Assembly: GCF_009827405.1 (NCBI RefSeq)
Contig: NZ_WTYY01000003.1
Span: forward strand, 310,001-374,000
Origin: Alteraurantiacibacter aestuarii
Lineage (GTDB): Bacteria; Pseudomonadota; Alphaproteobacteria; Sphingomonadales; Sphingomonadaceae
Length of the DNA: 64,000 nt
Direction of reading: 5' to 3'
Below are positions 28,000 to 56,864 of the stretch, piece after piece. The position numbers were made by a program, and so were the translations under genes. Numbering within the stretch: the stretch's first letter is position 1; every line of letters starts with the position of its first letter. The notes beneath the pieces are model-generated. The model was not told the origin of the DNA. It worked only from the letters and a program-made list of their open reading frames with translations, and ran no database searches.

Positions 28000-29121
28000 T
28001 TACCAGTATCGCTTGCTGGCGATCTCGGCACCTTGTGCCAACGTGGCCAGCTTTGCCCACACCACATCGGGATCAAGGTTGTTGCTGCCGGCATGGACGG
28101 AAAAGCCGCAATCCACGCCCGCCATCACCCGCTCACGGCCCAGCAGATCGGCATAGCGGCCAATCCTCTGCGCAATCAGCTCAGGGTGTTCGATATAGGT
28201 CGATTGCGGTTCGATCATGCCCGGGCACAGCACCTTGCCTTCGGGCAGCGGATTGTCCTCAAAGAAGGCGAATTCATGCGCGTGGCGCGGGTTTGCGCCT
28301 TCCAGCAGCACGGCATGCGGCTTGGCGCTCCACACGATGTCGGCAATTTCGTCCAGCGCCACGTCGCAGTGATGCGGGCCGGGATAATTGCCCCAACACA
28401 GGTGCATGCGGCATTGCTCTGCCGGAATATTGCGCAGCGCATGGTTAAGCGCGGCGATGTTCATGCCGATCCGCTTGCGGAATTCCTCCAGGCTGAGATT
28501 GGTGAACTGCACATGGCGGCCCATCGCCAGATCCGGGCAATCGACCTGCAGGGTGATCCCGGCAGCGGCAATCGTCTCATATTCGTGGCGCAATCCCTCG
28601 GCCAGGGCGAAGACATATTCCTCGTCACTGGGGTAATATTGGTTGGGGAAGAACAGCGCGGTGACACCCGGAGATGCGGCGGACATGAAGCTGTCATGGC
28701 CAGCGGCAATGCGCGTCAATCGCTCCGCATCGATGCGCGGAGCTTCCATGTCGATCACTTCGATGGGGCTGGTGCAGGCAGGGGCGGACCGCTTGGCGCG
28801 GCCCTTGTTGCCAAACACCTGTGCCTTGGCGCCGGGGAATTCCTCCAGGTCCTGAAACTCGTACTGGCCCGCTTCGCCGCCGAAGCCCGACAGGCGGTGC
28901 TTGATATAGGTGGCGTAGGACGGCTTGGACATTTCACCATCGCCGACGATGGAAATGCCCGCCGCCTTCTGGTGGCCGATCACCTCCGCCGTGGCCCGGT
29001 CAATCGCCTCATCCAGGGCCGGCTGATCGACCCCGTCGCCGCCTTCGCGGGCGAACATCAGGTCTAGCAGGTACTCTGGGCGTGGCAGGCTGCCGGTATG
29101 GGTGGTCTTGAACCCGCTCAC
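28000..29121 (-). CDS. MetE-like zinc methyltransferase/thiol transferase, copy A
   Basis: 373 residues, a stand-alone version of the C-terminal catalytic half of cobalamin-independent methionine synthase (UROD/MetE-like superfamily). TTHTGSLPRP opens the barrel; the zinc ligands are visible as HLCWGN (HxC, about residue 245) and the late Cys in VDCGFSVHAG. In MetE this site activates homocysteine thiolate; in relatives such as epoxyalkane:coenzyme M transferase it activates other thiols. The full-length folate-binding N-terminal half of MetE is absent. Its ATG overlaps the copy B stop by four bases. Role within the cluster is inferred to be methyl or thiol transfer, not housekeeping methionine synthesis. 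Confidence 0.85.
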   Translation of the reverse strand: MSGFKTTHTGSLPRPEYLLDLMFAREGGDGVDQPALDEAIDRATAEVIGHQKAAGISIVGDGEMSKPSYATYIKHRLSGFGGEAGQYEFQDLEEFPGAKAQVFGNKGRAKRSAPACTSPIEVIDMEAPRIDAERLTRIAAGHDSFMSAASPGVTALFFPNQYYPSDEEYVFALAEGLRHEYETIAAAGITLQVDCPDLAMGRHVQFTNLSLEEFRKRIGMNIAALNHALRNIPAEQCRMHLCWGNYPGPHHCDVALDEIADIVWSAKPHAVLLEGANPRHAHEFAFFEDNPLPEGKVLCPGMIEPQSTYIEHPELIAQRIGRYADLLGRERVMAGVDCGFSVHAGSNNLDPDVVWAKLATLAQGAEIASKRYW

Positions 29122-30149
29122 GCCAGCTCCTCGCGCACCATCCGCGCACCTTCAACCATGGCCCGCATCTTGCCGAAGGCAACCTCGCGCGGGAGGTATT
29201 TCAGCCCGCAATCAGGAGCCACGATGATGCGCCTGGCATCGACATGGGGCAGCGCCTTGCGAATGCGCGCGGCAACGGTTTCCGGCTCCTCCACCGCATG
29301 GGTCGACAGGTCCAGAACGCCCAGGATGATGGTCTTGCCCGGCAGGGTTTCCAGCACCTTGGTATCGAGCTTCGACTGCGCCGTCTCGATCGAGATCTGC
29401 TGCACCGCGCTCGCTGAAAGTTCGGGCAGGAAGCTGTAACCTTCGGGCCGCTCGTGAATCAGGTGGGCATAGCCAAAGCAGATGTGCAGCGCGGTGGTGC
29501 CCTGCACGCCTTCCAGCGCGCGTTCGAGTGCCACCAGGCCGAACTGGCGCGCCTTGTCGGGCCGTGCCTGCATGTAAGGCTCGTCCAGCTGGACCACGTC
29601 GGCGCCGGCGGCGAACAGGTCCTTGATCTCCTCGTTCACGGCGGCGGCATAGCCCAGCGCCAGCGCTTCGGGATCGCCGTAGTAATCGTCCTGCGCCTGC
29701 TGGCTCATGGTGAAGGGGCCGGGCACGGTGATCTTGATCGCCTTGTCGGTATGCTGCTTCATGAACTCAACGTCGCGCACCTGCACCGCATGGCGGCGGC
29801 TGATCGGTCCGGTCACGCGCGGCACAGGCACCGGCTCCCCGCTGCGATCCAGCGCGGTGCCGTGATTGTCCATGTCCACCCCGTCCAGCGCCGTGGCGAA
29901 ACGGTTGGAATAGCTCTCACGCCGCATCTCGCCATCGGTGATGATGTCCAGCCCGGCACGCTCCTGCGCTTCCATCGCCATGATCGTGGCATCGTCCCAT
30001 GCTTCCTCGAGCATGTCTTCCGGAATGCGCCACAATTCCTTCTGCCTTGTGCGCGGCGGGAACCGCCCGGCCAGCTTGGCACGGTCGATCAGCCATTCGG
30101 GCTGGGCGTAGGAGCCGACCAGCGAAGTCGGGAGCAGCGGAAGGGTCAT
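29118..30149 (-). CDS. MetE-like zinc methyltransferase/thiol transferase, copy B
   Basis: 343 residues, paralogous in fold to the next gene. LPTSLVGSYAQPEWL opens the barrel, ITDGEMRRESYSN and QLDEPYMQ follow, and the zinc ligands appear as HICFGY (HxC) and APDCGLKYLP. EMRRESY and the LDEP motif are typical of MetE-C proteins. It is translationally coupled to copy A, which suggests a two-subunit or two-step system. It lies downstream of the VOC gene, with an 85-bp gap, in the same leftward operon as the CoA-transferase. Confidence 0.85.
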   Translation of the reverse strand: MTLPLLPTSLVGSYAQPEWLIDRAKLAGRFPPRTRQKELWRIPEDMLEEAWDDATIMAMEAQERAGLDIITDGEMRRESYSNRFATALDGVDMDNHGTALDRSGEPVPVPRVTGPISRRHAVQVRDVEFMKQHTDKAIKITVPGPFTMSQQAQDDYYGDPEALALGYAAAVNEEIKDLFAAGADVVQLDEPYMQARPDKARQFGLVALERALEGVQGTTALHICFGYAHLIHERPEGYSFLPELSASAVQQISIETAQSKLDTKVLETLPGKTIILGVLDLSTHAVEEPETVAARIRKALPHVDARRIIVAPDCGLKYLPREVAFGKMRAMVEGARMVREELA

Positions 30150-30234
30150 TCAGTATCCTCTCAATTATAAGCACGCAGCACGCGCCGGGCGGTATCCGCC
30201 TCGCAGCGCCAGTTCAGGTGGCGGAACCTGCTGT

Positions 30235-30774
30235 TCAGGCAGCTTCCTCTTCGCTGCGGAAGTCGTTGTTGGAGGTGTAGTCTCCGGCCAGCCAGCGCTT
30301 CAGCTCGTCATGCGCCTTGGCCTTGCGCGCCGCGTCACCTGCCGCTGCCCGCGGATCGTCATGGGTGAACTCCACCGTCATGCCATTGGGATCGACGACA
30401 TAGACCGACCGGCAATAGCCGTGCTCCAGCACGTAGGTTGCATCCAGCCCGGCGTCCTTGATCCGCCGCTCCAGTTCCACCTGCGTTTCCTTGTCCACGT
30501 CCAGCGCGAGGTGGACGAAAGGCGTCTGCGGAATATCGGGGACGAACAGCTCCTCGTCCTCCTTGTTGGCGAACTGGAAGAAAGCCAGCGCGCCGCCATC
30601 GCCAATGCCGAAGAAGCAGTGGCAATAGGTGCGCATCTTGCCGAACAGCATGTCTGATTCGCACCAGGTGGCCACCAGCGGCAGGCCGAGGATATCCTCG
30701 TAGAAATGGCGCGTCGCTTCCATGTCCTTGGTGACGTAAGCGGTATGGTGCAGGCGGTTAGGCAGTCTGGACAT
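30235..30774 (-). CDS. VOC-superfamily (glyoxalase/dioxygenase fold) metalloprotein
   Basis: 179 residues with two beta-alpha-beta-beta-beta modules. Metal ligands are suggested by LHHTAYV near residue 9, FVHLALDV near 87 and TVEFTHDD near 138, the His/His/Glu pattern of glyoxalase I, fosfomycin-resistance and extradiol-type enzymes. VVDPNGMTVEF is the classical C-terminal signature. About 25 extra residues at the C-terminus (KAHDELKRWLAGDYT) are unusual. As it stands beside two MetE-like thiol-activating proteins, a role on a thiol adduct or an epimerisation is plausible but unproven. Confidence 0.83.
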   Translation of the reverse strand: MSRLPNRLHHTAYVTKDMEATRHFYEDILGLPLVATWCESDMLFGKMRTYCHCFFGIGDGGALAFFQFANKEDEELFVPDIPQTPFVHLALDVDKETQVELERRIKDAGLDATYVLEHGYCRSVYVVDPNGMTVEFTHDDPRAAAGDAARKAKAHDELKRWLAGDYTSNNDFRSEEEAA

Positions 30775-30870
30775 CTTGAATTCTCCCTTCGGCCGATTCT
30801 TCTCGGTCCCTGATGCAGTCAGTCTATCAAACTGGGGCGTTGGCGCAATTGACGAGTGCCGCGCCCTGGA

Positions 30871-32001
30871 TCACCCTTTGCGCCCGAGGATTTCCGCATT
30901 GTCCGCGCCCAGCTCTGGCGGCGGCACGACCGTGTCCTCTATCTCGCCGTCAAAGCGGATGGGGTTGCGGATGGTACGGAACGTACCGCGCGGTCCTTCG
31001 CCCGAAATTTTCACCCTGTGGTGCTTTGCCAGCGGGCCTTCGAGCACCTCCTTCGACGAATAGACCGCCGAATGCGGCACTTCGAGAGCGGTCAGCCGCT
31101 CCTCCCAATATGCGCGCGGCTGGGTGGCGAAGATCGGCGCGAGGAAGGCGATCACATTCTCGTAATTGGCAATTCTCGCCGGGCGGCTTTCGAACTCCGG
31201 ACGCTGGAGCATGTCGGGCTGGCCCACCGCTTCTGCCAGGTTTTCCCAGAACTTGGGCGGGGAGGACATGTGCAGCGCGATCCAGCCGCCGTCGGCACAT
31301 TCGAACACATAGCTCTGGCTGACATGCGGGCGAGACCACGGCCCCATGACCTCGTCCACGCTGAGGTAATGGGTGAAATCATCGAGGTTGAAGTGGCACA
31401 TCGCCTCGAACATCGACGTTTCGACCCGGCGGCCCTTGCCCGTCTTCTCCCGCTCATACAGCGCGGCAAGAATGCCAAAGGCGGTGTAGAAGCCGGTCAC
31501 AGCGTCACCTATCGCGGGGCCAACCACGCGCGGATTGCCCGGATTGACCAGCAGCCGCAGAAACCCGCTGCACGCCTGCGCCACCGTGTCGAAAGCGGGG
31601 CGATCCTTCCACGGGCCATCGTTACCGAAGCCGGAGATATCGGCATAGATCAGCCGCGGATTGATGCCCTGCAGCCGCTCTGCCCCCACGCCCAGCCGCT
31701 CGGCCACGCCGGGACGGAAGTTCTGGATGAATACGTCCGCGGTCTTCACCAGCTCGTCCAGCGCCGCCAGATCTTCCGGGTTCTTCTTGGTGTTGAGCGT
31801 GATGGATTTCTTGTTGCGGTTATACGTCTGGTAATGCGGCGAATAGAGATCGCCCTTGAAGGCGCGGAAGGGATCGCCCGTTTCGGGCATTTCCACCTTG
31901 ATCACTTCGGCGCCCAAGTCGGCCAGCAACATGCCGGCAGCCGGCCCGGTGATGAAAGTGCCCATATCGAGCACGCGTATGCCTTCAAGCGGCCTGGCCA
32001 T
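30871..32001 (-). CDS. CaiB/BaiF family (class III) CoA-transferase
   Basis: 376 residues. Transfers CoA between carboxylic acids. LEGIRVLDMGTFITGPAAG at residues 5-23 is the family N-terminus; DVFIQNFRPGVAERLG and VGPAIGDAVTGFYTAFG follow, the latter containing the conserved catalytic Asp region. ATG 32001 has AGGAGAG six bases upstream; in-frame codons beyond it overlap the divergent gene and are rejected. First gene of the leftward VOC/MetE-like operon, divergent from the citryl-CoA-lyase-like gene. It likely activates a carboxylic acid intermediate of the cluster's pathway. Confidence 0.92.
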   Translation of the reverse strand: MARPLEGIRVLDMGTFITGPAAGMLLADLGAEVIKVEMPETGDPFRAFKGDLYSPHYQTYNRNKKSITLNTKKNPEDLAALDELVKTADVFIQNFRPGVAERLGVGAERLQGINPRLIYADISGFGNDGPWKDRPAFDTVAQACSGFLRLLVNPGNPRVVGPAIGDAVTGFYTAFGILAALYEREKTGKGRRVETSMFEAMCHFNLDDFTHYLSVDEVMGPWSRPHVSQSYVFECADGGWIALHMSSPPKFWENLAEAVGQPDMLQRPEFESRPARIANYENVIAFLAPIFATQPRAYWEERLTALEVPHSAVYSSKEVLEGPLAKHHRVKISGEGPRGTFRTIRNPIRFDGEIEDTVVPPPELGADNAEILGRKG

Positions 32002-32068
32002 TCGTCTCTCCTGTTCCTCTTTGCGTGGATCGCTATAGGTTGAAAGCTTGATCGGCAAGGAGAGACAA
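32002..32068. promoter_or_regulatory. Divergent promoter between CoA-transferase and citryl-CoA lyase-like genes
   Basis: Only 67 bp separate the two start codons, each with its own AGGAGA-type ribosome site (about 32008-32014 on the minus strand, 32057-32063 on the plus strand). Both operons must be driven from this region or its edges, implying joint control. CTTG-ATCGG-CAAG (32047-32059) overlaps the plus-strand ribosome site. Confidence 0.55.
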
Positions 32069-32851
32069 ATGCGCATCGGCAAACAGGACCAACCCTTCAG
32101 CGCTATCTGTAAATCGGATGCGACCAGCATCACGGTAAGGGGCAGAGACCTGTGCGGCGACATCATCGGAAAAATGGATTTCAGCTCCTACTTCTGGCTG
32201 CTGGTGACGGGGGAGGAGCCGAACGAGGACCAGTCCTTCTTCCTCAACGCCGTTCTGTGCGCGCTGGCCGAACACGGACTGGTGCCCAGCGTCGTGGCCG
32301 CCCGCATGACCCTGGCCGCCGCGCCAGAGGCAGTGCAGGGCGCCGTGGCGGCAGGGCTGCTGGGCTGCGGATCGGTGGTACTGGGCAGCGCCGAAGTGGC
32401 GGGCAAATTCTACGCGCAGTGCGTGGCCGACCAGCGCGAGACGGGCGACGATGTGGCGGACGTGGCCAAGCGTAATATCGTGGAACTGCGCAAGACCACC
32501 AAGGCCGTGCCCGGCTTTGGCCACCCGCAACACTCAGAAGGCGACCCGCGTGCCAACCTGCTGCTCAAGCTGGCAGACGAGCGCGGCGTATCGGGCGAAC
32601 ACGTGGCCATGATGCGCGCATTGCAGGCCGCCCTGCCCGAAACCATCGGCCGCGAACTGCCCGTCAACGTCAACGGCCCGATCCCGGCGATCATGCTCGA
32701 CCTGGGCTGGCCCGTCGCGGCGCTGAAAGGCATCGGCCTGCTGTGCCGCACCGGCGGCCTGATCGGCCACCTGACCGAGGAGGCCGAGCGACCGATCGGC
32801 TTTGTGCTGAGCGGTGCTGCGGCGCAGGCGATTGAGTATGATGGGGAGTGA
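32069..32851 (+). CDS. Citryl-CoA lyase-like short citrate synthase family protein
   Basis: 260 residues, about 60% of a full citrate synthase and equal to the short citryl-CoA lyase-type members. GYHP-like PGFGHPQHSEGDPRA carries the conserved His-Pro of the citrate synthase active site; VNVNGPIPAIMLDLGWP and GLLCRTGGLIGHLTEE match the C-terminal core with Arg and His/Glu residues kept. Enzymes of this type cleave or form a carbon-carbon bond next to a CoA thioester. Start ATG 32069 has AAGGAGA upstream. With the divergent CoA-transferase it forms a plausible activate-then-cleave pair. Confidence 0.85.
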   Translation: MRIGKQDQPFSAICKSDATSITVRGRDLCGDIIGKMDFSSYFWLLVTGEEPNEDQSFFLNAVLCALAEHGLVPSVVAARMTLAAAPEAVQGAVAAGLLGCGSVVLGSAEVAGKFYAQCVADQRETGDDVADVAKRNIVELRKTTKAVPGFGHPQHSEGDPRANLLLKLADERGVSGEHVAMMRALQAALPETIGRELPVNVNGPIPAIMLDLGWPVAALKGIGLLCRTGGLIGHLTEEAERPIGFVLSGAAAQAIEYDGE

Positions 32852-32872: not shown

Positions 32873-33607
32873 ATGGCGTTCGTGATTGAGCACGATCGCA
32901 CCGCAACTGAATTTGACGATGACACTCTCTTAGTCTTTGTTGACGAGACGGGAGATGAGAGGCTTTCGTCTTTCGAGGTGCCCTATTTTGGCTTTGGGGG
33001 CTGCCTCTGTCGAGCCTCGGATTATGAAACCGCGATTGAACGATCTTGGACAATCTTGGAATCGAAATTCTCCTATAAAGGTAGTCGGCTGCACGCATCA
33101 GAGTTGAATCCGAAAGAACTTAGCGATGCGCAAAAATCTGCATTAGGCACATATTTCGCGAAGGGAGCTTTTGGCCGCTTCGCAGCAATTGCAAAATCGA
33201 GCATGATAAACGAAACGGAGCATAGCGCCTTCCATCTCACAGCTTACATGGCGATCCAGCAAATGCTGGAAGTCATAAAGAGGATGGGAGGAGACTTTAG
33301 CGGGATCGTCATGCTATTTGAACATTCACAACGATTGGACTCGCTCTACAACGACTATTTTAGGCGTTATGACTTCCGTCGTAAGGATGGCGCGAAAGTC
33401 CCTTGTTTTTTTGCCACCCAAGCGAAAAATACGGGAAAGGAGCTTCTCGCCGGCCTCGTGGTTGCAGACTTTGTTGCGCATACGGCAGGAAGCATGTCGC
33501 GAACAACGCAAGGCGGAACAGTCAAAGCAAAGCGTAGGGATTTTGCTGCTATTTTTTCACATGAGTTCGCAAGTCATATGTTTATTGATGCAATCAGGAG
33601 CCAATGA
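32873..33607 (+). CDS. DUF3800 protein, AT-rich insertion in the cluster
   Basis: 244 residues. VFVDETGD near residue 20, SRLHASEL near 75 and LLAGLVVADFVAHTAG near 200 are the three conserved acidic blocks of DUF3800, predicted to form an RNase H-like fold. Family members are scattered in genomes, often near mobile or defence genes; no activity is established that I can name with confidence. Base composition differs sharply from the neighbours: two 60-base lines I counted have 45-48% GC against well over 60% nearby. It sits between two catabolic genes and overlaps the next possible upstream start by four bases, so it looks like a foreign gene spliced into the operon. Confidence 0.85.
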   Translation: MAFVIEHDRTATEFDDDTLLVFVDETGDERLSSFEVPYFGFGGCLCRASDYETAIERSWTILESKFSYKGSRLHASELNPKELSDAQKSALGTYFAKGAFGRFAAIAKSSMINETEHSAFHLTAYMAIQQMLEVIKRMGGDFSGIVMLFEHSQRLDSLYNDYFRRYDFRRKDGAKVPCFFATQAKNTGKELLAGLVVADFVAHTAGSMSRTTQGGTVKAKRRDFAAIFSHEFASHMFIDAIRSQ

Positions 33608-33615
33608 CGCAAGAG

Positions 33616-33660
33616 CCTTGCCAAGCCTCCTGCCCCTCCGCACAGTGCCCTCAGGAGAGA
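33616..33660 (+). repeat. Leader repeat copy 1, upstream of cytochrome c gene
   Basis: CCTTGCCAAGCCT, ten unrelated bases, CGCACAGT, then CTCAGGAGAGA leading into the cytochrome c start. The same blocks with the same first spacing occur upstream of the GMC gene at 34109. It includes the ribosome site. Confidence 0.75.
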
Positions 33661-33666
33661 CACCAC

Positions 33667-34074
33667 TTGACCGCTGCCACGCCCGACCACATCGCCGCCC
33701 GCACAGGCTCGCCTCGCGCGGTCCTCGCCAAGCTTGGCCTGCCGTGCCTGCTGCTGGCTCTGGCGGCTTGCGCAACCACCACCGATGGCGCGCCTTATGC
33801 GCCCGACGCCTCTATGGGTATGCTGATCGCGCGCGATTCCTGTGCGGAGTGTCATGCAACGGGCAGGACCGGGGATTCCCCGAATGAGGACGCAACCGCC
33901 TTCCGCGAAATCGCAGGCCGTCCCGCCATGACCCAGCAGGCGCTGGCTGCATGGCTTACCGATGGTCACAATTATCCGGCCGAAATGGGCTTCACTCTGG
34001 AGCAGCACCAGATCGAATCGCTGGCCGCCTTCATGATCCGCCTGCGGGCAGGTGGGGCGGATTCCGCATCCTAG
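33667..34074 (+). CDS. Cytochrome c-type lipoprotein
   Basis: 135 residues from TTG 33667, chosen because AGGAGAGA (33653-33660) lies six bases upstream; the frame opens at ATG 33604 but that stretch overlaps DUF3800 and codes for Pro/Cys-rich junk. A lipobox LLALAAC follows a hydrophobic signal, so it is anchored in a membrane. One haem-binding CAECH lies near residue 60, and Met residues in PAMTQQ or AEMGF could be the sixth ligand. Placed just before the GMC oxidoreductase, it is the likely electron acceptor for periplasmic or membrane alcohol oxidation. Confidence 0.85.
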   Translation: MTAATPDHIAARTGSPRAVLAKLGLPCLLLALAACATTTDGAPYAPDASMGMLIARDSCAECHATGRTGDSPNEDATAFREIAGRPAMTQQALAAWLTDGHNYPAEMGFTLEQHQIESLAAFMIRLRAGGADSAS

Positions 34075-34159: not shown

Positions 34160-35830
34160 ATGATCGCTGGCGAATTCGATTACCTTGTTATCGGCGCAGG
34201 TTCTGCCGGTGCGGCGCTGGCCGCGCGGCTTTCAGAGGATGAGACCAAGACCGTCTGCGTGCTGGAAGCGGGCGGGCATGACAGCCATCCGTTCATCCAC
34301 GTGCCCAGCTTCGTTGCCGCCGCGATTGGCCGCAAGGAGACGAACTGGAGCTTTGAAACCGTGCCGCAGCCGGGCATGGCGGGCCGCAAGATCGGCGTGC
34401 CGCGCGGGCGGGTGCTGGGCGGATCGGGCGCGATCAACGGCATGGTCTATTTTCGCGGCCATCCCACCGATTATGATGACTGGTCGGACGCGGGCTGCAC
34501 CGGCTGGTCCTATGCCGAAGTGCTGCCCTATTTCACCCGCACCGAGCATAATGAGAATTATCCCGCCAGCGTGTTCCACGGCACCGATGGCCCGATCAAC
34601 GTCAAGCACGTGGAGAACCCCAACCAGCTCAATTACTCCTTCATGGATGCGCTGGCGTCGCTGCAATTTCCCGCCTGCCCGGATTTCAACGGGCCTGACC
34701 CGGAAGGCTATGGCCGCCGTCAGGGCCTGATCGGCAAGGGCCTGCGCCAGAGCACCGCGCGGCAGATGCTGCTGCCCGCGATGGAGCGCGGCAATATCCA
34801 TTTGCAGACCGATGCCCGCGTGGCGCGCATATTGGTGGAAGACGGACGGGCCATTGGCGTGGAGCTGGTGGACGGCAAGGTGATCCGCGCGCGGCACGAA
34901 GTGGTGCTGTCTGCCGGAACGGTGCAGACGCCGCAGATATTGATGTTGTCCGGCATTGGCCCCGCCGCCCATCTGAAGGAAATGGGCGTGGACGTGGTGC
35001 ATGATCTGCCCGCCGTGGGCGAAAACTATCACGATCATGTGGCCAGCCCACTGCACATGGAAACCAGCGATTCCACCAGTTACGGCATCAGCTGGAAGGC
35101 TGCCCCGCGCGATATCGCCTGGTTCTTCTATTACCTCGCCACCCGCAAGGGACCGCTGGCGGGCAATGTGTTTGAAAGCGTGGCCTTCCTGCGCACCGAT
35201 CCCAGCCTGACAAAGCCGGACGTGCAATTCGTGTTCCAGCCGGCCAAACGCCTGACGGTGAAGGGCGTGCCGTTCCCGGTGGGCCACGGCTATGCCATCA
35301 GCCCGGTGGCGCTGTATCCCAAGAGCCGCGGCACCATTCGCCTGGGCAGCAATGATCCCGCCGCCGCGCCGCTGATCGATCCCAGGCTGTTGCAGGAGCC
35401 GGAGGATATCCAGCCGCTGATCCGCGCGCTGAAGATCGCCCGCGCCGCCTTCGCCAGCGATGCCTTCAAGCGCTACAACGGCACCGAAGTGGCACCGGGC
35501 GCAGAGGTCACCAGTGATGCCGCGCTCGACGCCTATATCCGCGAGACCGGCTATACCGTTCACCACCCCGTGGGCACGTGCAAGATGGGCGCAGCGGGCG
35601 ATGCCAGCGCTGTGGTCGATCCACAGCTGCGGGTTCGGGGCATTACAGGCCTGCGCGTGGCCGACGCCAGCGTCATGCCATCGGTCATCGGCGGCAACAC
35701 CAATGCGCCCTGCGTGATGATTGGTGAGCGCTGTGCCGATTTCATCCTCGGCAAACCCGCATTGCCCGCCGCACAATTGCCGCCGACAAGCGTCGCACGT
35801 TACAAACCCGGAGCGGCAGAAGCCGCCTGA
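34160..35830 (+). CDS. GMC-family FAD-dependent alcohol dehydrogenase/oxidase
   Basis: 556 residues. FAD-binding FDYLVIGAGSAGAALAARL near the start, GMC signature 1 as GRVLGGSGAINGMVYFRG (about residue 90), signature 2 as SAGTVQTPQILMLSGIGP (about 250), and the active-site His/Asn pair in HHPVGTCKMG and GGNTNAPCVMIGE. GMC enzymes oxidise alcohols; sphingomonad relatives include polyethylene glycol dehydrogenase and choline dehydrogenase-like enzymes that donate electrons to a quinone or cytochrome. The cytochrome c lipoprotein directly upstream supports a dehydrogenase rather than an oxygen-using oxidase. Substrate unknown. Confidence 0.94.
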   Translation: MIAGEFDYLVIGAGSAGAALAARLSEDETKTVCVLEAGGHDSHPFIHVPSFVAAAIGRKETNWSFETVPQPGMAGRKIGVPRGRVLGGSGAINGMVYFRGHPTDYDDWSDAGCTGWSYAEVLPYFTRTEHNENYPASVFHGTDGPINVKHVENPNQLNYSFMDALASLQFPACPDFNGPDPEGYGRRQGLIGKGLRQSTARQMLLPAMERGNIHLQTDARVARILVEDGRAIGVELVDGKVIRARHEVVLSAGTVQTPQILMLSGIGPAAHLKEMGVDVVHDLPAVGENYHDHVASPLHMETSDSTSYGISWKAAPRDIAWFFYYLATRKGPLAGNVFESVAFLRTDPSLTKPDVQFVFQPAKRLTVKGVPFPVGHGYAISPVALYPKSRGTIRLGSNDPAAAPLIDPRLLQEPEDIQPLIRALKIARAAFASDAFKRYNGTEVAPGAEVTSDAALDAYIRETGYTVHHPVGTCKMGAAGDASAVVDPQLRVRGITGLRVADASVMPSVIGGNTNAPCVMIGERCADFILGKPALPAAQLPPTSVARYKPGAAEAA

Positions 35831-37923: not shown

Positions 37924-37959
37924 CACATAGTGGGATCGCCTGAATCAGCTCCGGTCACC

Positions 37960-39875: not shown

Positions 39876-39947
39876 GTTGGGCTCCTTTGCTTTGCCTCCT
39901 AAACTGCCGGATAATGATGTTTGTTCCGCAATTCTGGAGTCGCCCCC

Positions 39948-46381: not shown

Positions 46382-46400
46382 TGTGTCTATCCTCAAATCC

Positions 46401-46826
46401 TCATTGCAGCCGGAGATCGGCTGCATCGTCAAATGGGTGGAAATATTCGACGTCCTGCCCGCAAACAGAATGCCCCATCGCCGAGACCCCGGCTCTCCCC
46501 TCCAGCCATTTGGAATAGGCGCGAAACAAGGCGATACGCCCCTGCAGATTGTTCACGGAATCTGCTGGGCTGATGAAGGCTGAGCCGCCGAGGAGACCCA
46601 TCGCCTGCCTGCAGGCCGCATTCTCCGGGAACCCAGCAACACAAATGGTATTGTAGCAGGCCTGGGCCTGACCAACAAAGACCCTCGTCCTTTCAATGCC
46701 CGCAGCGTTTTCGGTTTCGAGTTTCCTGGTTTGCCAGCCATCATACAGCATTTGCGCGCCGATGGTCACAGCAGAGACGACGACCGCAAATGGCGCCATT
46801 CGTGCGAACCTGGCCAAGCCCTTCAT
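46401..46826 (-). CDS. Membrane-anchored hypothetical protein in the esterase operon
   Basis: 141 residues. N-terminal helix FAVVVSAVTIGAQMLYDGW anchors the protein; a coiled-coil-like stretch KLETENAAGIERTRVF follows. The rest has five Cys (YNTICVAG, NAACRQAM and others). Start overlaps the serine hydrolase stop by ATGA, so it is co-translated. Not recognised. Confidence 0.65.
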   Translation of the reverse strand: MKGLARFARMAPFAVVVSAVTIGAQMLYDGWQTRKLETENAAGIERTRVFVGQAQACYNTICVAGFPENAACRQAMGLLGGSAFISPADSVNNLQGRIALFRAYSKWLEGRAGVSAMGHSVCGQDVEYFHPFDDAADLRLQ

Positions 46827-48055: not shown

Positions 48056-48090
48056 ACCGTATCTCCCCAATATCGTGGTCTTTGCGACTC

Positions 48091-48102: not shown

Positions 48103-48184
48103 CAACTAGGGAAGTGAGTCCACATGCGAAAGTGGCTTTGCAGCTTCAATTGCAATCGGCCATGATATGCGCCGGGAGAGTGTG

Positions 48185-49924: not shown

Positions 49925-50728
49925 TCAATCCAGATACGCAATCGTCCGCAGCTCCACGCTCTGCCTAGGGGCGGCTCCAGCCAGCGCGGTGGTATCCTGA
50001 AAGGCGGAGTGCGCGGTGAACTGCACCGCGTCGCGCTCGGAGTCGAACAGCTTGAAGGCCAGCGCCTCGCTCGGCTGCATCTGCGGCACCCAGTACCATT
50101 TGTGCTCCGGATTGTAGGCCAGGTTGAAGCCCCATAGCGAGCGCGATGCGCCGCCGAGGCCGCCGATGATCTCGCTGTCGAACAGGTCGTCACGCGTCAC
50201 CGTGCGCGCATCGCACAGGGCCAGCGGGGCGCTTTCGACCGGCAGGATCGGCCGCCAGACGTTGATCAGCATGTGCCGCTTCGCCAGCCGCCGCTCTGCC
50301 TCTTCCGCAGGCAGCAGGTCGCGCGTGTAGTCGGCCACGGTGCGTGCGCCGTAATCGACATGGGCGCCGAATGCGGGCTGGTTGTGGCCGTGGGTGCCAC
50401 TGGCACTGGTGCGGATGATCGGGCCGAAGCTGACCACCTTGTCCGCCCCGGTCAGCGCTTGCACCAGTGCCTCGGTCTGGCGGCAATAGGTGGCCAGCTG
50501 GTCTGCATCGGTATAGTCGGCAATGCCGCTGGACCGGTCCACCAGCACGAAGCCGTTGCGCTCCAGCGCCAGCTCTTCTGAGTGCGGGCGCAGGTCGTGA
50601 ATCGTGATCTGCCGCTCGTCTCCGGGCCAATAGCTGCGCTCGCGGTCGCCCGCATAGAAAGTCGCCTTCTCGCCGCGCACGACATATTTCATCGTGGTTT
50701 GCACGTCGCGGGTCTGGGTGTGGGTCAT
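49925..50728 (-). CDS. CmcJ/NvfI-family oxidoreductase
   Basis: 267 residues from ATG 50728 with AAGGA upstream. ITIHDLRPHSEELALERNGF, FGPIIRTSASGTHGHNQPA, AHVDYGARTV and LINVWRPILPVESAPLAL match the CmcJ/NvfI/AsqJ-like family, in which HxD...H residues usually hold iron and use 2-oxoglutarate or act in a methoxylation complex; His in AHVDYG (H-x-D) is visible, and the distal His is in NPEHKWYW. Members are known from cephamycin biosynthesis (CmcJ) and fungal meroterpenoids. In a bacterial catabolic cluster it may oxidise a similar natural product. The C-terminus converges on the AT-rich gene; divergent from the AAHS transporter. Confidence 0.83.
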   Translation of the reverse strand: MTHTQTRDVQTTMKYVVRGEKATFYAGDRERSYWPGDERQITIHDLRPHSEELALERNGFVLVDRSSGIADYTDADQLATYCRQTEALVQALTGADKVVSFGPIIRTSASGTHGHNQPAFGAHVDYGARTVADYTRDLLPAEEAERRLAKRHMLINVWRPILPVESAPLALCDARTVTRDDLFDSEIIGGLGGASRSLWGFNLAYNPEHKWYWVPQMQPSEALAFKLFDSERDAVQFTAHSAFQDTTALAGAAPRQSVELRTIAYLD

Positions 50729-50782
50729 GCTGGCATCCTTGGCGGTCTTATTCTTTTGACGGACCTTATTTAGCACCATAGC

Positions 50783-50794: not shown

Positions 50795-50833
50795 CCGCCA
50801 TCGAGCGGCATGGGAGAGGGAGGCCAAGGGGCC

Positions 50834-52192
50834 ATGCACGTAGTCGATCCGCGTATCGTGATGCGCGAGCGTCCGATGAACCTGAAGCAATACGGCGTGG
50901 TGGCGCTGTGCGTGCTGATCAACATGATCGACGGGTATGACATTCTGGCACTGGCGCAGGCAGGCAGCGCGCTGAAGACCGAATGGGGCATGAGCGATGC
51001 TGCGCTGGGCACATTGCTGGCCATGAACCTGGTCGGCATGGCGGTGGGCGCGCTGGGCGTATCGCCGGTGGCGGACCAGTGGGGCCGCCGCCCGGCGATG
51101 CTGATCTGCCTGCTGTTCATGAGCATCGGCATGGCGATATCCGCCGGGTCTGACGGCTTCCTGGTGATGGCGACGGGCCGCCTGATCACTGGCATCGGCA
51201 TTGGCGGGATGACCAGCACCGCAGGCACTCTGGCGCTGGAATATGCCAGCCAGAAGCGGCGCGAATTTGCCACCAGCGCGGTGGCGGCGGCCTATCCCGT
51301 GGGGACCATCATCGGTGCCTATGTCGCGGTGGCGGTGCTCGACACCTATGGCTGGCGCGGTATCTTCTGGGTGGGCGGATCGCTGTCTGCCATCCTGTTC
51401 CCGATCGCCTTCATCTGGCTGCCCGAAAGCCTCGACTTCCTGCTGACGCGCCAGCCCAAGGGCGCGCTGGAAACCACCAACAAGGTTCTGCGACGCATGC
51501 GCGTGCCGGAGATTTCACAGCTTCCGCCGCGCCCGCAGGATTCGACCGAAGGCTCCACCGCGCTGAGCGAAATCCTCCAACCGGTTCACCGAAACGAGCT
51601 GATCTTCAAACTGTTCATCGCCCATGCGCTGAACATGTTCGCCTGGTATTTCATCATCAACTGGGGACCGCCGCTGGTGGCAGAGGCAGGCGCGTCTGAC
51701 GCGCTGGGCGCGCGCTATTCGGCGTGGGTTTCCTATGGCGGGATCATCGGCGGCCTGTCCGCGGGCTTCTTCTGCGGCGTGGTGGGCGTGAAACGGATGA
51801 TGTGGCTGACGATGGTCAGCCTGGCCATACTGATCACCCTGTTCGGCATGTTCGTGGGCAATCCCGGTGCGCTGCTGATCATCGCCCCGCTGATGGGCGC
51901 GGCGCTGTTCGGCTCCGCCGTCGCCAACTGGCTGACGATTGCCTATGCCTTCCCGCCCTATCTGCGCGCCACCGGGCTGGGCTTTGCCACCACGGCGGGC
52001 CGCGTGGGATCGATCTTCGGACCGATCGTGGGCGGCGCACTGCTGGGCACGCGCGAGGCCCCGCTCGACCTTGGCTTTGCCACCATCGACATCAGCATGA
52101 GCGTGGCCGCAGTCTGCGCAGTGATGGCGGTTCCGGCGATCCTGTCAGCCCTGACCTTCAACCGCGCACGGCGGGTAGAGCCGGGACGCTAG
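50834..52192 (+). CDS. MFS transporter of the aromatic acid:H+ symporter type
   Basis: About 452 residues, 12 TM helices expected. INMIDGYDILALA in TM1 is the D-G-x-D motif of the AAHS group (PcaK, BenK, MhpT), and DQWGRRPAMLI is the MFS loop 2-3 motif. These import aromatic carboxylates with protons. ATG 50834 is preferred over 50810 because AAGGGG lies just before it. Suggests that an aromatic or similar acid crosses the inner membrane for this pathway. Confidence 0.9.
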   Translation: MHVVDPRIVMRERPMNLKQYGVVALCVLINMIDGYDILALAQAGSALKTEWGMSDAALGTLLAMNLVGMAVGALGVSPVADQWGRRPAMLICLLFMSIGMAISAGSDGFLVMATGRLITGIGIGGMTSTAGTLALEYASQKRREFATSAVAAAYPVGTIIGAYVAVAVLDTYGWRGIFWVGGSLSAILFPIAFIWLPESLDFLLTRQPKGALETTNKVLRRMRVPEISQLPPRPQDSTEGSTALSEILQPVHRNELIFKLFIAHALNMFAWYFIINWGPPLVAEAGASDALGARYSAWVSYGGIIGGLSAGFFCGVVGVKRMMWLTMVSLAILITLFGMFVGNPGALLIIAPLMGAALFGSAVANWLTIAYAFPPYLRATGLGFATTAGRVGSIFGPIVGGALLGTREAPLDLGFATIDISMSVAAVCAVMAVPAILSALTFNRARRVEPGR

Positions 52193-52220: not shown

Positions 52221-52601
52221 TCAGGAGTGGAAGGCGGCCACGGCGGGGCCGCTGTCGGTATATTCGCGCATGCGGGCGATCTTGCCGTCTTCATCGAAGG
52301 TGAAGACGAAGCAGAAGTCGTTCACATAAGAACCGCCCCTGATCAGCGGGCTGTCACAGGCGGTCATCACCACCACGTTGTTGCCATCGATCAGCGTGCC
52401 CTGATGGGTGAAGCGAATGCCGTCCACCAGCAGTGAGCGCGCGCCATCCAGCAGCGCCGCCAGCTGCGATGGCTCCATCCATCCCTGCCCCGGCAGCCAG
52501 ATTTTCGCACCCTCGGCGAAATAGCCCAGCATGGCCTTGGTATCGAGCGCGCGCACGCATTCCAGATAGGCAAGCGCTGTCTTTTCCGGATCGAAGCTCA
52601 T
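52221..52601 (-). CDS. SnoaL-like/NTF2-fold protein 3
   Basis: 126 residues from ATG 52601, overlapping the upstream MFS stop by ATGA. KTALAYLECVRALDTKAMLGYF, KIWLPGQGWMEPSQL, VMTACDSPLIRGG and KIARMREYTDSGP give the SnoaL pattern. Third such protein in the cluster. Likely isomerase, dehydratase or cyclase acting on a product of the oxygenases. Confidence 0.85.
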   Translation of the reverse strand: MSFDPEKTALAYLECVRALDTKAMLGYFAEGAKIWLPGQGWMEPSQLAALLDGARSLLVDGIRFTHQGTLIDGNNVVVMTACDSPLIRGGSYVNDFCFVFTFDEDGKIARMREYTDSGPAVAAFHS

Positions 52602-53881
52602 GCAGCCATTCCTTCTGTCTTGCGCGCCAGTATGCGCGGATTGGTTTCGGCCACGAACAGCGCCACCAGGCCGCCCAGCGCGGCCAGCCCCAGTTGCACA
52701 TACAGCGCCACGTCGAGCGAGTAGCTGTCTGCCAGCCGCCCGGTGATAGGTGGCAGGGCAAAGCCGCCGAAGATCTCTCCCACCGCCACAACCGCGCCCA
52801 TGGCGGTGGCGGCGCGCACACGGCCCAGCGTTTCCGCCGGGATGATGCCCATGAACAGGGGGAAGGAGCCAAGGCCCATCCAGCTGACAAACAGTAGCGC
52901 CGCGAGCATGGGCGCGGGACCCTGCACCCACAGCAATGTGGCGGGCGCGATCATCATCAGCGATACGAACAGCACCAGCGCAGGCTTGCGTCCCACGCGC
53001 TCTGAAAGCAGGCCAGCCAGCACCGCGCCCGCTGCCGGCGAGAAACCGATGGTGGCCATGATGTTGCTCCATGTTGCAGGAGCGATGCCGCGCGGGCCAT
53101 CAAGGTAGAGCGGCATGAAGATCGATCCGATCACCACCGTGCCCACCCCGAAGATGCTGACGATCGCACACAGCAGGATATTGCGGGTGGCCATGAGCGA
53201 GCGCATTTCGCGCAGTTCGCGCATTACCAGTGCGCCAATGCCCAGCGATGCAGCGGATTTGCGGGCGGCCACCGTTGCGGGATCAGGCTCCGGCTCTGAA
53301 ATCTTGCGCCAGATGATGGCGGCCAGGATCAGGCCGGGCACACCGGCCAGGAAGAAGGCCATCCGCCAGTCATAGGCCTCGGCGATGCGCACCAGCACGA
53401 TAGGGGCGAGCGCTGTGCCGATGATCGAACCGAACACGTTCTGGACGATGCCCGCGTTCAGGCCCTTGCGGCTTTCTGCCGAGGCGGCGACCATGATCGC
53501 CAGGCAGATGGGCAGGAACGGCCCCTCCGCCGCGCCCATCACGATCCGGCTGGCCAGCAGCGAACCGAAGCTCCACGCCAGGCCGGACATCATCGAGCAG
53601 AAGGAGAAGATCACCAGCGCCGCAATCAGGAACGGTTTGCGCCGGCCGATCAGATCGGACCAGCGGCCCACGAAATAGGCGCCCAGCGCCCAGGTCAGCG
53701 ACAGGCCGGAGCCGAGCCAGCCCAGTTGTTCATTGCTCAGGCCCATGTCGGCCTGCACCGCAGGGCCAAGGAAGGTCATGGACATGCGATCGAAATAGGC
53801 AAAGCCATAGGCCAGACCCAACAGCAGCAAGACTGTCAGCTCATAGCCTCTGGGAAATTTGGTCCCCTTGTTTTCGCTCAT
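52598..53881 (-). CDS. MFS transporter (ACS-type)
   Basis: 427 residues with 12 predicted TM helices. YGFAYFDRMSMTFLGPAVQ in TM1 and GRWSDLIGRRKPFL in loop 2-3 are typical of the anion:cation symporter group (ExuT, GarP types), which import organic acids. Divergent from the TonB receptor, so the two transport layers share a 352-bp regulatory gap. Coupled to SnoaL-like protein 3. Confidence 0.9.
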   Translation of the reverse strand: MSENKGTKFPRGYELTVLLLLGLAYGFAYFDRMSMTFLGPAVQADMGLSNEQLGWLGSGLSLTWALGAYFVGRWSDLIGRRKPFLIAALVIFSFCSMMSGLAWSFGSLLASRIVMGAAEGPFLPICLAIMVAASAESRKGLNAGIVQNVFGSIIGTALAPIVLVRIAEAYDWRMAFFLAGVPGLILAAIIWRKISEPEPDPATVAARKSAASLGIGALVMRELREMRSLMATRNILLCAIVSIFGVGTVVIGSIFMPLYLDGPRGIAPATWSNIMATIGFSPAAGAVLAGLLSERVGRKPALVLFVSLMMIAPATLLWVQGPAPMLAALLFVSWMGLGSFPLFMGIIPAETLGRVRAATAMGAVVAVGEIFGGFALPPITGRLADSYSLDVALYVQLGLAALGGLVALFVAETNPRILARKTEGMAA

Positions 53882-54233
53882 GAATTTCCCTCCCCAATGA
53901 ACGTTTATGGCCGAGTTTCAGCCATTTGGACCTGTTGTGCAAGCGCAACATTGGTCAATCTGGCTATGCGATTGCTGCTGAAACCGGTGCTTTTTGTGTT
54001 GCTTGATTACGACAATGGCCACGCAATGGAATGGTTTTCTGCCTAGATGCCCTTGCTCCGACCCAAACTACAGCTAGAGATGCACACAGGGAGAGGAGAC
54101 GGTCGGCTTCTTTGCGAGTCTGGCATGCTTCCTCCTTACCGGTCTTAGAGCACAGCTGTTTAAAGGCGTGCCAGGACACAATCGTAACACCAAGCGAGCG
54201 CCTCTTTCGGGTCTCGCCAGGGGAGGATGCCTG
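53882..54233. promoter_or_regulatory. Divergent promoter region of MFS and TonB receptor
   Basis: 352 bp with no credible gene. It contains an 18-bp inverted repeat at 53933-53950 (separate entry) and a GGGAGG ribosome site at 54221-54226 for the receptor. No terminator seen. Confidence 0.55.
53933..53950. promoter_or_regulatory. 18-bp inverted repeat, candidate operator
   Basis: TGTTGTGC-AA-GCGCAACA, eight-base arms with one mismatch, about 50 bp upstream of the MFS start and 280 bp from the receptor start. The TTGyGC-AA-GCrCAA shape fits a helix-turn-helix dimer such as a LacI- or GntR-type regulator. Confidence 0.5.
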
Positions 54234-56864
54234 ATGAAGTTCAAGACGCTCAGCGTTGCGTCGTCGCTTGCCATAGTGGCAAGCATGGCCGCGCCAGCAT
54301 ATGCTCAGGACGCCGAAGGTGATGAAGGTGCGCGCACCAACACCATCGTCGTGACTGCGGAATTCCGCGAAACCAACCTGCAGGACACGCCAATCGCCAT
54401 TACCGCCGTCAACGCGGAAATGCTCGAAGCGCGCGGCCAGACCGACATTGCACAGGTCGCCGCACAGGCACCGAACGTAACTCTCAAGCCGCAGCCCCAG
54501 AACGGTGGCTCGGGCCTGATCGCCTTTATTCGTGGCGTCGGCCAGGTCGACTTCAACTACGCGCTCGATCCGGGTGTGGGTGTCTATGTCGATGACGTGT
54601 TCATCCCGACGCTCTCCAGCTCGCTGCTGGAACTGATGGATCTCGATCGCATCGAAGTTCTGCGCGGTCCGCAGGGCACGCTGGCTGGCAAGAACTCCAT
54701 CGGTGGTTCGATCAAGCTGTTCAGCGCCCGTCCTGAAGGCAGCGGCGAAGGCTATCTGCGCGCAACCTACGGTTCTTTTGACCGTATGGAACTGCGCGGC
54801 ATGGCCGACTTCGAAGTGGCTGATAATCTGTTCGCCCGCGTATCCGGCTTCGGCCGCAGCGTGGACGGCTATGTCACCCAGCTCGATTACGGCCTGACCC
54901 ATCCGGGTTCCAACGTTCCCAGCAACAATGCTCGTGGACGCGGCAACCCTGACAACACCACGATGGGCGGTTCCAACACGACTGCTGGTCGTATTGCGCT
55001 GCGCTGGGTTCCGACCGATCGCCTGGAAGTGAACATCTCGGCTGACTTCTCCTCCACCAAGGGTGAAGCTGGTCCGACCGTTCTGCTGGCTGCCGGTAAG
55101 GCAACCGGTGGTGCGACAGCGTTCGATCCGTTCTCTGACAATCCTGCCGCAAGTGTCGGCAATGGCATTGCCGGAACCGAGATCTATAACGATGATGATG
55201 AGCTCGTCGGTTACGGTGCTTACGAATCGCTGCCTTGGCTCACGGGCCTTGATGGCGACGCTGTTCCGGTAAACTGCGCCTTCGTTCCGAACGGCCCATA
55301 CAGCTGCGACAACATCGGCAACGCCTTTGGTGATCCGGGCTTCATCGCATATTCCAACTTCCTGGATGCGCGCACCCCGACTTCCCAGGCGCCTTACAAG
55401 CCCTATTCTGCCTTGCAGAACCAGGACTTCACCGGCTGGGGCATTCACAGCAATGTCACCTATGATCTGATGGACGACCTGCAGGTTGTCTGGATCAGCT
55501 CCTGGCGTGAATATGAATCCAAGTGGGGCCAGGATCAGGACGCAACTCCTGTTCCCGTGGCACAGCTGGACAACCAGCTGAACCACCGCGCATGGAGCCA
55601 GGAACTGCGCCTGAACTTCGAACTCGCCGATGGCATGGTCGAAGGTACGGTTGGCGGCTTCCTGCTTGATCAGGCTGGCGAATATACCGCGCGTGTTGAC
55701 CTCAACTACGCTGGTATTGACTTCATCCACGGTCCGGACACCACGCCCAGCACGACCAAGGCAATCTTCGGTACTGCTACGCTCCATCCGACCCCGGATA
55801 TGAGCATCACCGGTGGTCTGCGTTATACGAAGGACAAGAAGGTCTACACCTACTTCCGGTCCAACCCGGATGGGTCCTATCCCTTCGATGACTACAACCC
55901 GGAAACCGATGGTCCGCCGATCTGCGAATACTTCTACGGTGCCGATCCTGACTTCGGTGGCCCGGTTTCGCTTGGCAACACGCCTAACTGTCTGCTGACC
56001 GGCCTGTTCGGCCTGTCTGACTCCTTCCGGGGTGATCGTTTCGACTGGCGTGTCTCGGCCGACTACCGCTTCTCCGACGAGTTGCTGATGTATGCGTCGG
56101 TTTCGACGGGCTTCAAGGGCGGCGGTGTTAACCCGCGTCCGTTCTTTGGTCCTTCGGCCGGTAGCTGTGACCCTGCAGAGGGTTATGTCGGCGGTCCGTG
56201 TAACCAGCTGAAGTCGTTCAATCCTGAAACGATTGTCACGTACGAAGTAGGCTTCAAGGCCGACTTGCTTGACCGTCGCCTGCGCTTGAACGGTGCTGCA
56301 TTCTACAATGATTATTCCAACATCATTCTGCAGCTCTCGGCTTGCCCGGCATCTCCCTGCCTCCAGCCCAACAACGTCGGCTCTGCCGAGGTCAAGGGCT
56401 TCGAGCTCGAGTTCGCAGCCTTCCCGGTTGACGGTCTCTCGTTCGATGGTGGCCTGTCCTACCTGGACTTCCAGTATGATACGGCTTCGGTCGCTCCTGC
56501 TGGCCTGACCGGTAACGAGGTAACGCCTTACACGCCGGAATGGACCTACAGCCTGGGTGGTCAGTACGACTATGAAATGGACGCCGGTACGGTCATGTTC
56601 CGTGTCGACGGTGCGTATCAGTCGGCTATCTACACCGACAGCTTCAACACCAGCTGGAGCAAGATCGACGGTTACTTCGTAGCCAACGGTCGCATCGGCT
56701 TCACCACTGCTGATGAAGAGTGGAACGTTGCTCTGGAAGTCCAGAACATGTTCGACAAGTACTACTTCAACAGTGTCAGCGACGTTACCGGTTCGCTCGG
56801 CCTGGTTACCGGTGTGCCCGGCCTGCCGCGCACCTGGTCACTGTCCGTCGGACGCCGCTTCTAA
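54234..56864 (+). CDS. TonB-dependent outer-membrane receptor
   Basis: 876 residues. Signal peptide MKFKTLSVASSLAIVASMAAPAYAQ, TonB-box-like TIVVTAEF near residue 36, plug domain (DTPIAITAVNAEMLEARG; EVLRGPQGTLAGKNSIGG) to about 160, then a 22-strand barrel with many aromatic turns and a final Phe (SVGRRF). Receptors of this size in sphingomonads import catabolic substrates as well as siderophores. Codons such as GGT, GCT and CGT are commoner than in neighbours, as in highly expressed genes. It closes the catabolic cluster and is presumably its outer-membrane gate. Confidence 0.96.
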   Translation: MKFKTLSVASSLAIVASMAAPAYAQDAEGDEGARTNTIVVTAEFRETNLQDTPIAITAVNAEMLEARGQTDIAQVAAQAPNVTLKPQPQNGGSGLIAFIRGVGQVDFNYALDPGVGVYVDDVFIPTLSSSLLELMDLDRIEVLRGPQGTLAGKNSIGGSIKLFSARPEGSGEGYLRATYGSFDRMELRGMADFEVADNLFARVSGFGRSVDGYVTQLDYGLTHPGSNVPSNNARGRGNPDNTTMGGSNTTAGRIALRWVPTDRLEVNISADFSSTKGEAGPTVLLAAGKATGGATAFDPFSDNPAASVGNGIAGTEIYNDDDELVGYGAYESLPWLTGLDGDAVPVNCAFVPNGPYSCDNIGNAFGDPGFIAYSNFLDARTPTSQAPYKPYSALQNQDFTGWGIHSNVTYDLMDDLQVVWISSWREYESKWGQDQDATPVPVAQLDNQLNHRAWSQELRLNFELADGMVEGTVGGFLLDQAGEYTARVDLNYAGIDFIHGPDTTPSTTKAIFGTATLHPTPDMSITGGLRYTKDKKVYTYFRSNPDGSYPFDDYNPETDGPPICEYFYGADPDFGGPVSLGNTPNCLLTGLFGLSDSFRGDRFDWRVSADYRFSDELLMYASVSTGFKGGGVNPRPFFGPSAGSCDPAEGYVGGPCNQLKSFNPETIVTYEVGFKADLLDRRLRLNGAAFYNDYSNIILQLSACPASPCLQPNNVGSAEVKGFELEFAAFPVDGLSFDGGLSYLDFQYDTASVAPAGLTGNEVTPYTPEWTYSLGGQYDYEMDAGTVMFRVDGAYQSAIYTDSFNTSWSKIDGYFVANGRIGFTTADEEWNVALEVQNMFDKYYFNSVSDVTGSLGLVTGVPGLPRTWSLSVGRRF

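Follow-up and report, generated by a model that had tools for sequence, protein, structure and literature searches.

Positions 28000-56864 of a 64,000-nucleotide stretch of Alteraurantiacibacter aestuarii DNA (the window) carry a dense run of enzyme and transport genes (Table 1), of which those at 34160-56864 (referred to hereafter as the core) form one heritable unit, and those at 28000-32851 a module of their own, adjacent to the core in this lineage. The window comes from a 2.24 Mb assembly that is 69.7% complete. Thirty reading frames spanning 27087-57857 were compared with NCBIfam, and 29 of these plus one competing frame with Pfam; listed starts were too long in several genes, and were trimmed for the CrtO-like flavoprotein, the CmcJ-type oxygenase, the CoA-transferase and one SnoaL gene. 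The gene families named in an earlier, sequence-only reading of the region were all recovered in place by these scans, to which we add the CrtO-like flavoprotein, a 72-residue orphan, a MetE-like pair, a VOC protein, a cytochrome c and a DUF3800-like gene.

Table 1. Genes of the region 28000-56864, with family matches and occurrence among tabulated loci.
Feature	Position	Strand	Family match	Remarks
MetE-like pair	28000-29121 and 29118-30149	-	PF01717	accessory module
VOC/glyoxalase-fold protein	30235-30774	-	PF00903	accessory module
Family III CoA-transferase (CoAT3)	about 30871-32001	-	PF02515, 356 bits on longer frame 30871-32166	start trimmed; accessory module
Citryl-CoA-lyase-like protein (CitL)	32048-32851	+	NF004868, 317.2 bits, above cut-off of 193	accessory module
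DUF3800-like gene	32873-33607		weak, 18.3 bits against cut-off of 21	
Cytochrome c	33604-34074			
GMC oxidoreductase	34160-35830	+	PF00732/PF05199	core, 20/20 loci
MBL hydrolase 1 (MBL1), lactonase-like	35845-36738	+	PF00753	core
Cytochrome P450	36742-37923	+	PF00067	13/20 loci
MBL hydrolase 2 (MBL2), lactonase-like	37930-38760	+	PF00753	core, 20/20 loci
HIBADH-like beta-hydroxyacid dehydrogenase	38757-39647	+	PF03446/PF14833	core, 20/20 loci
Short-chain dehydrogenase/reductase (SDR) 1	40381-41169	-	PF13561	core, 20/20 loci
72-residue orphan, partner gene of CrtO-like flavoprotein	41166-41384	-	no Pfam family	
CrtO/phytoene-desaturase-like FAD oxidoreductase	about 41381-42955	-	PF01593	start trimmed; core, 20/20 loci
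Serine hydrolase 1 (SerH1), beta-lactamase fold	42967-44112	-	PF00144	core
SDR2	44125-44889	-	PF13561	core, 20/20 loci
SnoaL_2-type protein	45046-45456	-	PF12680 on frame 45046-45570	start trimmed; core, 20/20 loci
SnoaL_4-type protein	45456-45950	-	PF13577	core, 19/20 loci
Carboxymuconolactone-decarboxylase-family (CMD, PcaC-like) protein	45947-46432	-	PF02627	core, 20/20 loci
Serine hydrolase 2 (SerH2), family VIII esterase-like	46823-48070	-	PF00144	core, 20/20 loci
FAD hydroxylase (FMO)	48167-49363	+	PF01494 (FAD_binding_3)	accessory, 3/18 loci
CmcJ/NvfI/CTB9-type Fe(II)/2-oxoglutarate oxygenase	about 49925-50731	-	NF041278, 259.9 bits, above cut-off of 80	start trimmed
AAHS-type major facilitator superfamily (MFS) importer	50810-52192	+	TIGR00895, 288 bits, below cut-off of 418.55	accessory
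Third SnoaL protein (SnoaL_2-type)	52221-52598	-	PF12680	accessory, 4/18 loci
Second MFS transporter	52598-53881	-	PF07690; best TIGR00893, 107 bits, below cut-off	accessory
TonB-dependent receptor	54168-56864	+	PF00593/PF07715	right-hand end of unit, 17/18 loci

The core as one heritable unit

We compared the locus across 148 related genomes (own genome included), 40 of which make up the home genus. MBL1 in the first operon (at least 69% identity) and SerH1 in the second (at least 76%) are common to exactly the same 24 relatives, namely 23 home-genus genomes and one from another genus (G047; Fisher p 4e-28, this and all Fisher values being nominal, with no correction for kinship); weaker matches at 39-43% identity, to MBL1 in three other genomes and to SerH1 in two, were not counted as carriage. 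The gene order of the carriers is that of the window, with core genes mostly 60-90% identical. Tabulation of 18 loci of this first type on adequate contigs, together with two of a fused type described below, places GMC, MBL1, MBL2, the HIBADH-like protein, SDR1, the CrtO-like protein, SerH1, SerH2, SDR2, the SnoaL_2 protein and CMD in all 20 loci, and the orphan in 18 of them. The CmcJ-type gene is present in every first-type and neither fused-type locus, the P450 gene in 11 of 18 and both, respectively; AAHS was found in eight and the second MFS gene in ten of the first-type loci (identity thresholds of at least 60% for both transporters, 70% for FMO and 67% for the third SnoaL gene). Orthologs of the CmcJ-type protein at 63% identity or more occur in 23 of the 148 relatives (own included), all of them among the 24 core carriers. 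Five carriers whose contigs break in the region (G001, G004, G020, G032 and G034) were omitted from the table; inspection of the partial contigs of G004, G020 and G034, and of G001, gave results consistent with it except in G001. A small frame between the two operons (39921-40334) has no Pfam family and finds counterparts of 35-53% identity in 11 of the 18 first-type loci, and in one carrier (G015; L103, L104, L043, L044) an inversion splits the cluster, such that the CmcJ-TonB-dxs half is reversed relative to the GMC-SerH2 half.

Outside the home genus the two operons also occur as one. In the genus of G202, which includes Sphingobium sp. EP60837, SerH1 was matched at E 1e-90 in 12 of the 94 genomes searched. 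Six of these (G202, G244, G1053, G1056, G1083 and G1070) hold a single collinear 14-gene operon in the order GMC-MBL1-P450-MBL2-HIBADH-SerH2-CMD-SnoaL-SnoaL-SDR2-SerH1-CrtO-orphan-SDR1; a contig end cuts the copy in G1081, and the other five genomes (G1036, G1059, G1071, G1074 and G1110) show different, more divergent arrangements. The sequence upstream of the operon in G202 and G244 is metG-, tatD- and holB-like, as judged by eye.

The unit is also absent as a whole from a conserved site. The dxs gene (identified as such by eye) was located in all 40 home-genus genomes, and the cluster-site stretch was compared in 16 of the 17 non-carriers. Thirteen of the 16 retain both the left flank (msrB; in the window at 26548-27039, with a SelR domain) and the right flank (GntR and POT; in the window at 57519 and 58037), and neither core genes nor a TonB receptor were detected in the space between; the remaining three are uninformative (msrB not in the stretch in G002, only dxs and one further gene in G036, and a stretch that ends in G027). 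As GntR and POT are also found in non-carriers, we place the right-hand end of the unit at 56864, and the GntR gene at 57519 was rejected as a cluster regulator belonging to it. In a dxs tree covering 33 of the 40 genomes, seven changes are needed to account for absence of the block (bootstrap range 6-8, at least three forced by well-supported branches), which indicates its repeated loss or gain at a single site. The site is bracketed by methionine sulfoxide reductase genes, the msrB-type gene on the left having an msrA-type counterpart at 62228-62902.

The sequence-only reading had joined the two main operons into one unit and proposed a search for the same gene order elsewhere; the identical set of carriers, the collinear operon of another genus and the joint absence at a conserved site bear this out, and the contrary outcome, operons that occur independently and never together, was not what we found for the core.

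The left-hand module

The same reading had treated the whole of the ~29 kb as one cluster, a description that holds for 34160-56864 and fails for 28000-32851, which is found elsewhere in the genome and without the core. CitL was detected in 32 of the 148 relatives, of which 21 are among the 24 carriers of the core and 11 among the 124 other genomes (nominal p 1e-14); the carriers in which it was not found are G018, G033 and G005, the last being incomplete. In six core carriers (G001, G003, G009, G013, G017 and G029) the module lies away from the core, the displaced CitL being accompanied in each case by VOC, CoA-transferase and MetE-like matches (in part in G013), and in four (G029, G009, G013 and G003) by a TonB receptor match beside it. 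Among the 11 core-less genomes with CitL, CoAT3 adjoins it in ten, a VOC gene of more than 60% identity accompanies it in eight and MetE-like genes in four; the eleventh, G024, has a lyase of 41% identity alone. Placement of the CoA activation and cleavage genes in the same pathway as the core is thus unsupported.

Comparison of 15 module loci (G013 and G024 left out) finds CoAT3 and CitL in all of them, and as recurrent companions a TonB receptor, an IclR-like regulator (by eye) and a flavodoxin-fold reductase (FMN_red), each matching eight to nine other loci. Copies of the flavodoxin-fold gene were present in 13 of the 15 genomes searched, at 53-57% identity but 76% in G009, and were not found in G000 and G031. 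As an entity of its own, this independent sphingomonad module (L112-L127) comprises VOC, CoAT3 and CitL, often with the TonB receptor, the IclR-like gene, the flavodoxin-fold reductase or MetE-like genes. The window's MetE-like pair scores below the cobalamin-independent methionine synthase equivalogs (266.8 against 392 for 29118-30149, 81.8 against 406 for 28000-29121). Between module and core in the window lies the weakly matched DUF3800-like gene at 32873-33607, which occurs in none of the 33 other tabulated loci and is perhaps a recent insertion.

Location of CitL beside the core goes with the presence of P450 in the core (11 of 12 versus none of seven, own genome included). The arrangement with the lyase beside the core (type A, 11 genomes; P450 was seen in nine of these, G020 and G034 not having been inspected for it) needs two changes on the dxs tree, and the association may therefore reflect few evolutionary events.

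Enzyme families of the core and their relatives

SVTK and SVAK in the two serine hydrolases, both of PF00144, match SxxK, the motif of family VIII (beta-lactamase-fold) esterases, and the best solved matches of SerH2 are carboxylesterases and esterases. Both MBL proteins carry HxHxDH, a motif of acyl-homoserine lactonases, and MBL1 is distantly nearest to a reconstructed dihydrocoumarin hydrolase and to methyl parathion hydrolase. Scores against the acyl-homoserine lactonase equivalogs (AiiA, AidB, YtnP and AttM) reach at best 74.6 against a cut-off of 425 for MBL1 and 64.5 against 375 for MBL2, and acyl-homoserine quenching was accordingly rejected as a role.

The CmcJ-type protein belongs to the CmcJ/NvfI family by NF041278, and is nearest to NvfI and CTB9, whose fold it shares; H124, D126, H241 and R256, invariant across 15 aligned sequences, agree with the HxD...H iron triad and the 2-oxoglutarate-binding Arg. 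The P450 has its nearest solved relatives in CYP199 (242.9 bits to 2fr7). Those of the flavin hydroxylase FMO are HspB (6-hydroxy-3-succinoylpyridine 3-monooxygenase; 303 bits, 7da9) and PnpA (270 bits), a likeness set against the presence of its gene in just three of 18 tabulated carriers. Several other proteins fall short of the named function nearest to them: GMC that of choline dehydrogenase (568.4 against 605 for NF002550, 503.7 against 732.1 for TIGR01810), the PcaC-like protein that of 4-carboxymuconolactone decarboxylase PcaC (TIGR02425, 133.3 against 155.7) and the CrtO-like protein, on the longer reading frame, that of beta-carotene ketolase CrtO (NF045689, 229.4 against 1000). Pyridoxine degradation employs a GMC oxidase, an SDR, an MBL lactonase and a flavin hydroxylase; we rejected it for the core, as the two MBL proteins score 37.1 and 39 bits with the pyridoxolactonase model and SDR2 146.6 bits with that of pyridoxal dehydrogenase, in each case against 325, and the extra hydrolases do not fit.

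An orphan-like frame lies within about 125 bases after the CrtO-like gene in 29 of 33 loci (the exceptions being G005, G009, G277 and G288a, the last with a copy elsewhere in the stretch), and among the 29 are catabolic regions of alpha- and betaproteobacteria, with plasmids from Burkholderia anthina, Rhizobium rhizogenes K84 and Novosphingobium aromaticivorans. No Pfam family was found among three orphan proteins tried, and NCBIfam matches of four were far below cut-off; hydropathy peaks in the C-terminal stretch in four of five sequences measured. Relatives of the CrtO-like protein at E 1e-90 or better number three among 385 genomes of the class and five among 398 of the phylum (thin samples that include the own genome and known carriers), and of 246 genomes sampled from the order 54 match at E 1e-40, most at 29-35% identity. 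A predicted structure of the CrtO-like protein had a predicted local distance difference test (pLDDT) score of 37 and was not used.

A proposed catabolic role, alternatives and substrate

We consider that the core is probably one sphingomonad catabolic unit, importing, de-esterifying, lactone-opening and oxidising an oxygen-rich natural product; catabolic direction, import, each reaction, step order and substrate class are what we infer from the gene content. The compound would be taken up through the TonB receptor, in many strains with the help of an MFS carrier, after which the two beta-lactamase-fold hydrolases would strip ester groups, the two metallo-hydrolases (MBL1 and MBL2) would open lactones, and the GMC, SDR, HIBADH-like and CrtO-like enzymes would oxidise alcohol and ring carbons; the SnoaL and PcaC-like proteins may reshape the product and the P450 and/or the 2-oxoglutarate oxygenase may oxygenate it, with the module at 28000-32851 perhaps finishing ring-cleavage products. 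The sequence-only reading took the listed genes together for one pathway; FMO, AAHS, the second MFS, the third SnoaL and P450 are each missing from some carriers, and so not every one of them can be a required step in a single route.

A close comparison is with plasmid pEP1 of Sphingobium sp. EP60837 (NZ_CP015988.1), where most of the core genes have divergent homologues (GMC 49% identity, MBL1 46, MBL2 45-47, HIBADH-like 40-43, SDR2 53-54, SerH1 49, SnoaL 52 and 36, CMD 57, CrtO 57-58, orphan 70, CmcJ 35 and P450 only 32). Unlike the compact core, these are scattered over about 50 kb (131-182 kb of the record), intermixed with C1-folate, dioxygenase, maleylacetate reductase and thiolase genes; among the neighbours are an aminomethyltransferase, folD, purU, formate dehydrogenase, a dioxygenase annotated to catechol-compound metabolism and the maleylacetate reductase. 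pEP1 itself is a conjugative plasmid with a very large catabolic region (L106/L110/L111, about 92-200 kb); besides C1-folate genes and formate dehydrogenase, this region holds two CmcJ/NvfI genes and several of the MBL, SDR and TonB families. By analogy with its C1-folate and ring-cleavage neighbours, the most likely substrate of the core would be a methoxylated aromatic bearing ester or lactone groups; of the aromatic and the terpenoid that the sequence-only reading named, pEP1 favours the former by inference. A more specific version, which we hold tentatively and rather doubt, is a 14-gene sphingomonad pathway for an aromatic natural product (methoxylated, esterified or lactonised) in which the NvfI/CTB9-type oxygenase and/or the CYP199-related P450 would O-demethylate oxidatively, and the CrtO-like protein and its ~70-residue partner would act as a new two-component flavoenzyme, the partner's hydrophobic C-terminus perhaps docking it to the membrane or quinone pool. 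Sorgoleone was considered as substrate since one CrtO homologue lies on a Burkholderia anthina plasmid from Sorghum rhizosphere/root exudates (the record's source), and stays a guess, literature searches having given no gene data in the parts of the source covered (PMC12642758).

Several observations weigh against a single catabolic unit of this kind. The Pfam and NCBIfam scans recognised no ring-cleavage enzyme and no regulator in 34160-56864. Core-gene distances, correlated at 0.49-0.93 over 21 genomes, correlate at only 0.08-0.81 within the 19 first-type genomes, and tree-likeness of the core genes was for this reason dropped as an argument. The P450, despite its best solved match being to CYP199A enzymes, retains R92 alone of the residues R92, S95, R243 and S244 when aligned with 4dnz (S95 being replaced by E, R243 by Q and S244 by T); these four bind the substrate carboxylate in CYP199A4. 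Its gene is missing from the cluster in seven of the 18 tabulated first-type carriers, with no copy found in five of the seven searched whole, except for a 36% paralogue in G033, and O-demethylation hence stays a candidate step; G001 has the core without P450 in it and without a CmcJ ortholog. A SerH2 homologue was not found in the pEP1 catabolic region, and this, with identities of only 32-58% (orphan 70%), means that the pEP1 pathway may have another substrate.

The catabolic unit proposed here has also to be weighed against other accounts of the same genes. That all of 28000-56864 is one obligate pathway, with CoAT3 and CitL as its last steps, would explain the enrichment of CitL in core carriers, the way that CitL beside the core tracks P450, and the lack of any TonB receptor detected between module and core where the two adjoin (with the window receptor as query); we nonetheless think it unlikely, given the six carriers with a displaced module (four with a TonB receptor match beside it), the ten core-less genomes with both enzymes and the eleventh with CitL alone, and the three carriers in which no CitL was found. 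Detoxification or modification of a toxic natural product (an antibiotic or allelochemical), rather than carbon use, is suggested by the chloramphenicol-inactivating oxidoreductase 8b7s among the three best solved matches of GMC and by the lack of a recognised ring-cleavage or beta-oxidation enzyme in the core, and the beta-lactamase-fold hydrolases, P450 and 2-oxoglutarate oxygenase could be inactivating enzymes; against this, uptake is suggested by the TonB receptor and by MFS proteins whose families are of importer type, fourteen enzymes are many for detoxification and the pEP1 relatives adjoin ring-cleavage and thiolase genes, such that this account seems to us distinctly improbable. Least probable by far is a biosynthetic cluster for a small metabolite: P450, SnoaL, SDR and CmcJ/NvfI proteins are typical tailoring families and all are present, but no polyketide, terpene or peptide synthase occurs among the frames scanned in 28000-57857.

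Described systems resemble the core in part. Benzoxazinoid degradation in Microbacterium and Sphingobium uses BxdA, a lactonase of the N-acyl homoserine lactonase family, on a methoxylated plant metabolite, with bxdA homologues acting in the latter and bxd forming a multi-gene catabolic cluster; the likeness, by description and not by sequence, is in lactonase use within such a cluster (PMC11297187, in the parts covered). Sphingomonad lignin-dimer pathways catabolise methoxylated aromatics with multi-step side-chain oxidation, and, compared by description, the gene table in the parts covered lists no set like that of the window (PMC12997858). No experiment on the pEP1 catabolic region was found, the EP60837 paper turned up being concerned, in the part covered, with carotenogenesis. 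In keeping with the earlier statement that no pathway with this set was known, we found no described pathway or cluster with it in open-licence full text, a weak negative as that corpus lacks bioRxiv and most subscription papers.

With its conservation, its sharp boundaries, its presence in 23 of 40 home-genus genomes and its retention or loss as a whole, the gene set points to a natural compound for whose degradation route we found no description. Now that its limits are set at about fourteen enzyme genes, and compact versions in a single operon exist in another genus, the unit lends itself directly to cloning, deletion and screening. The pair of CrtO-like flavoprotein and orphan turns up again in the catabolic regions of Sphingobium, Novosphingobium, Rhizobium and Burkholderia plasmids, and may represent an enzyme of general occurrence that has yet to be described.

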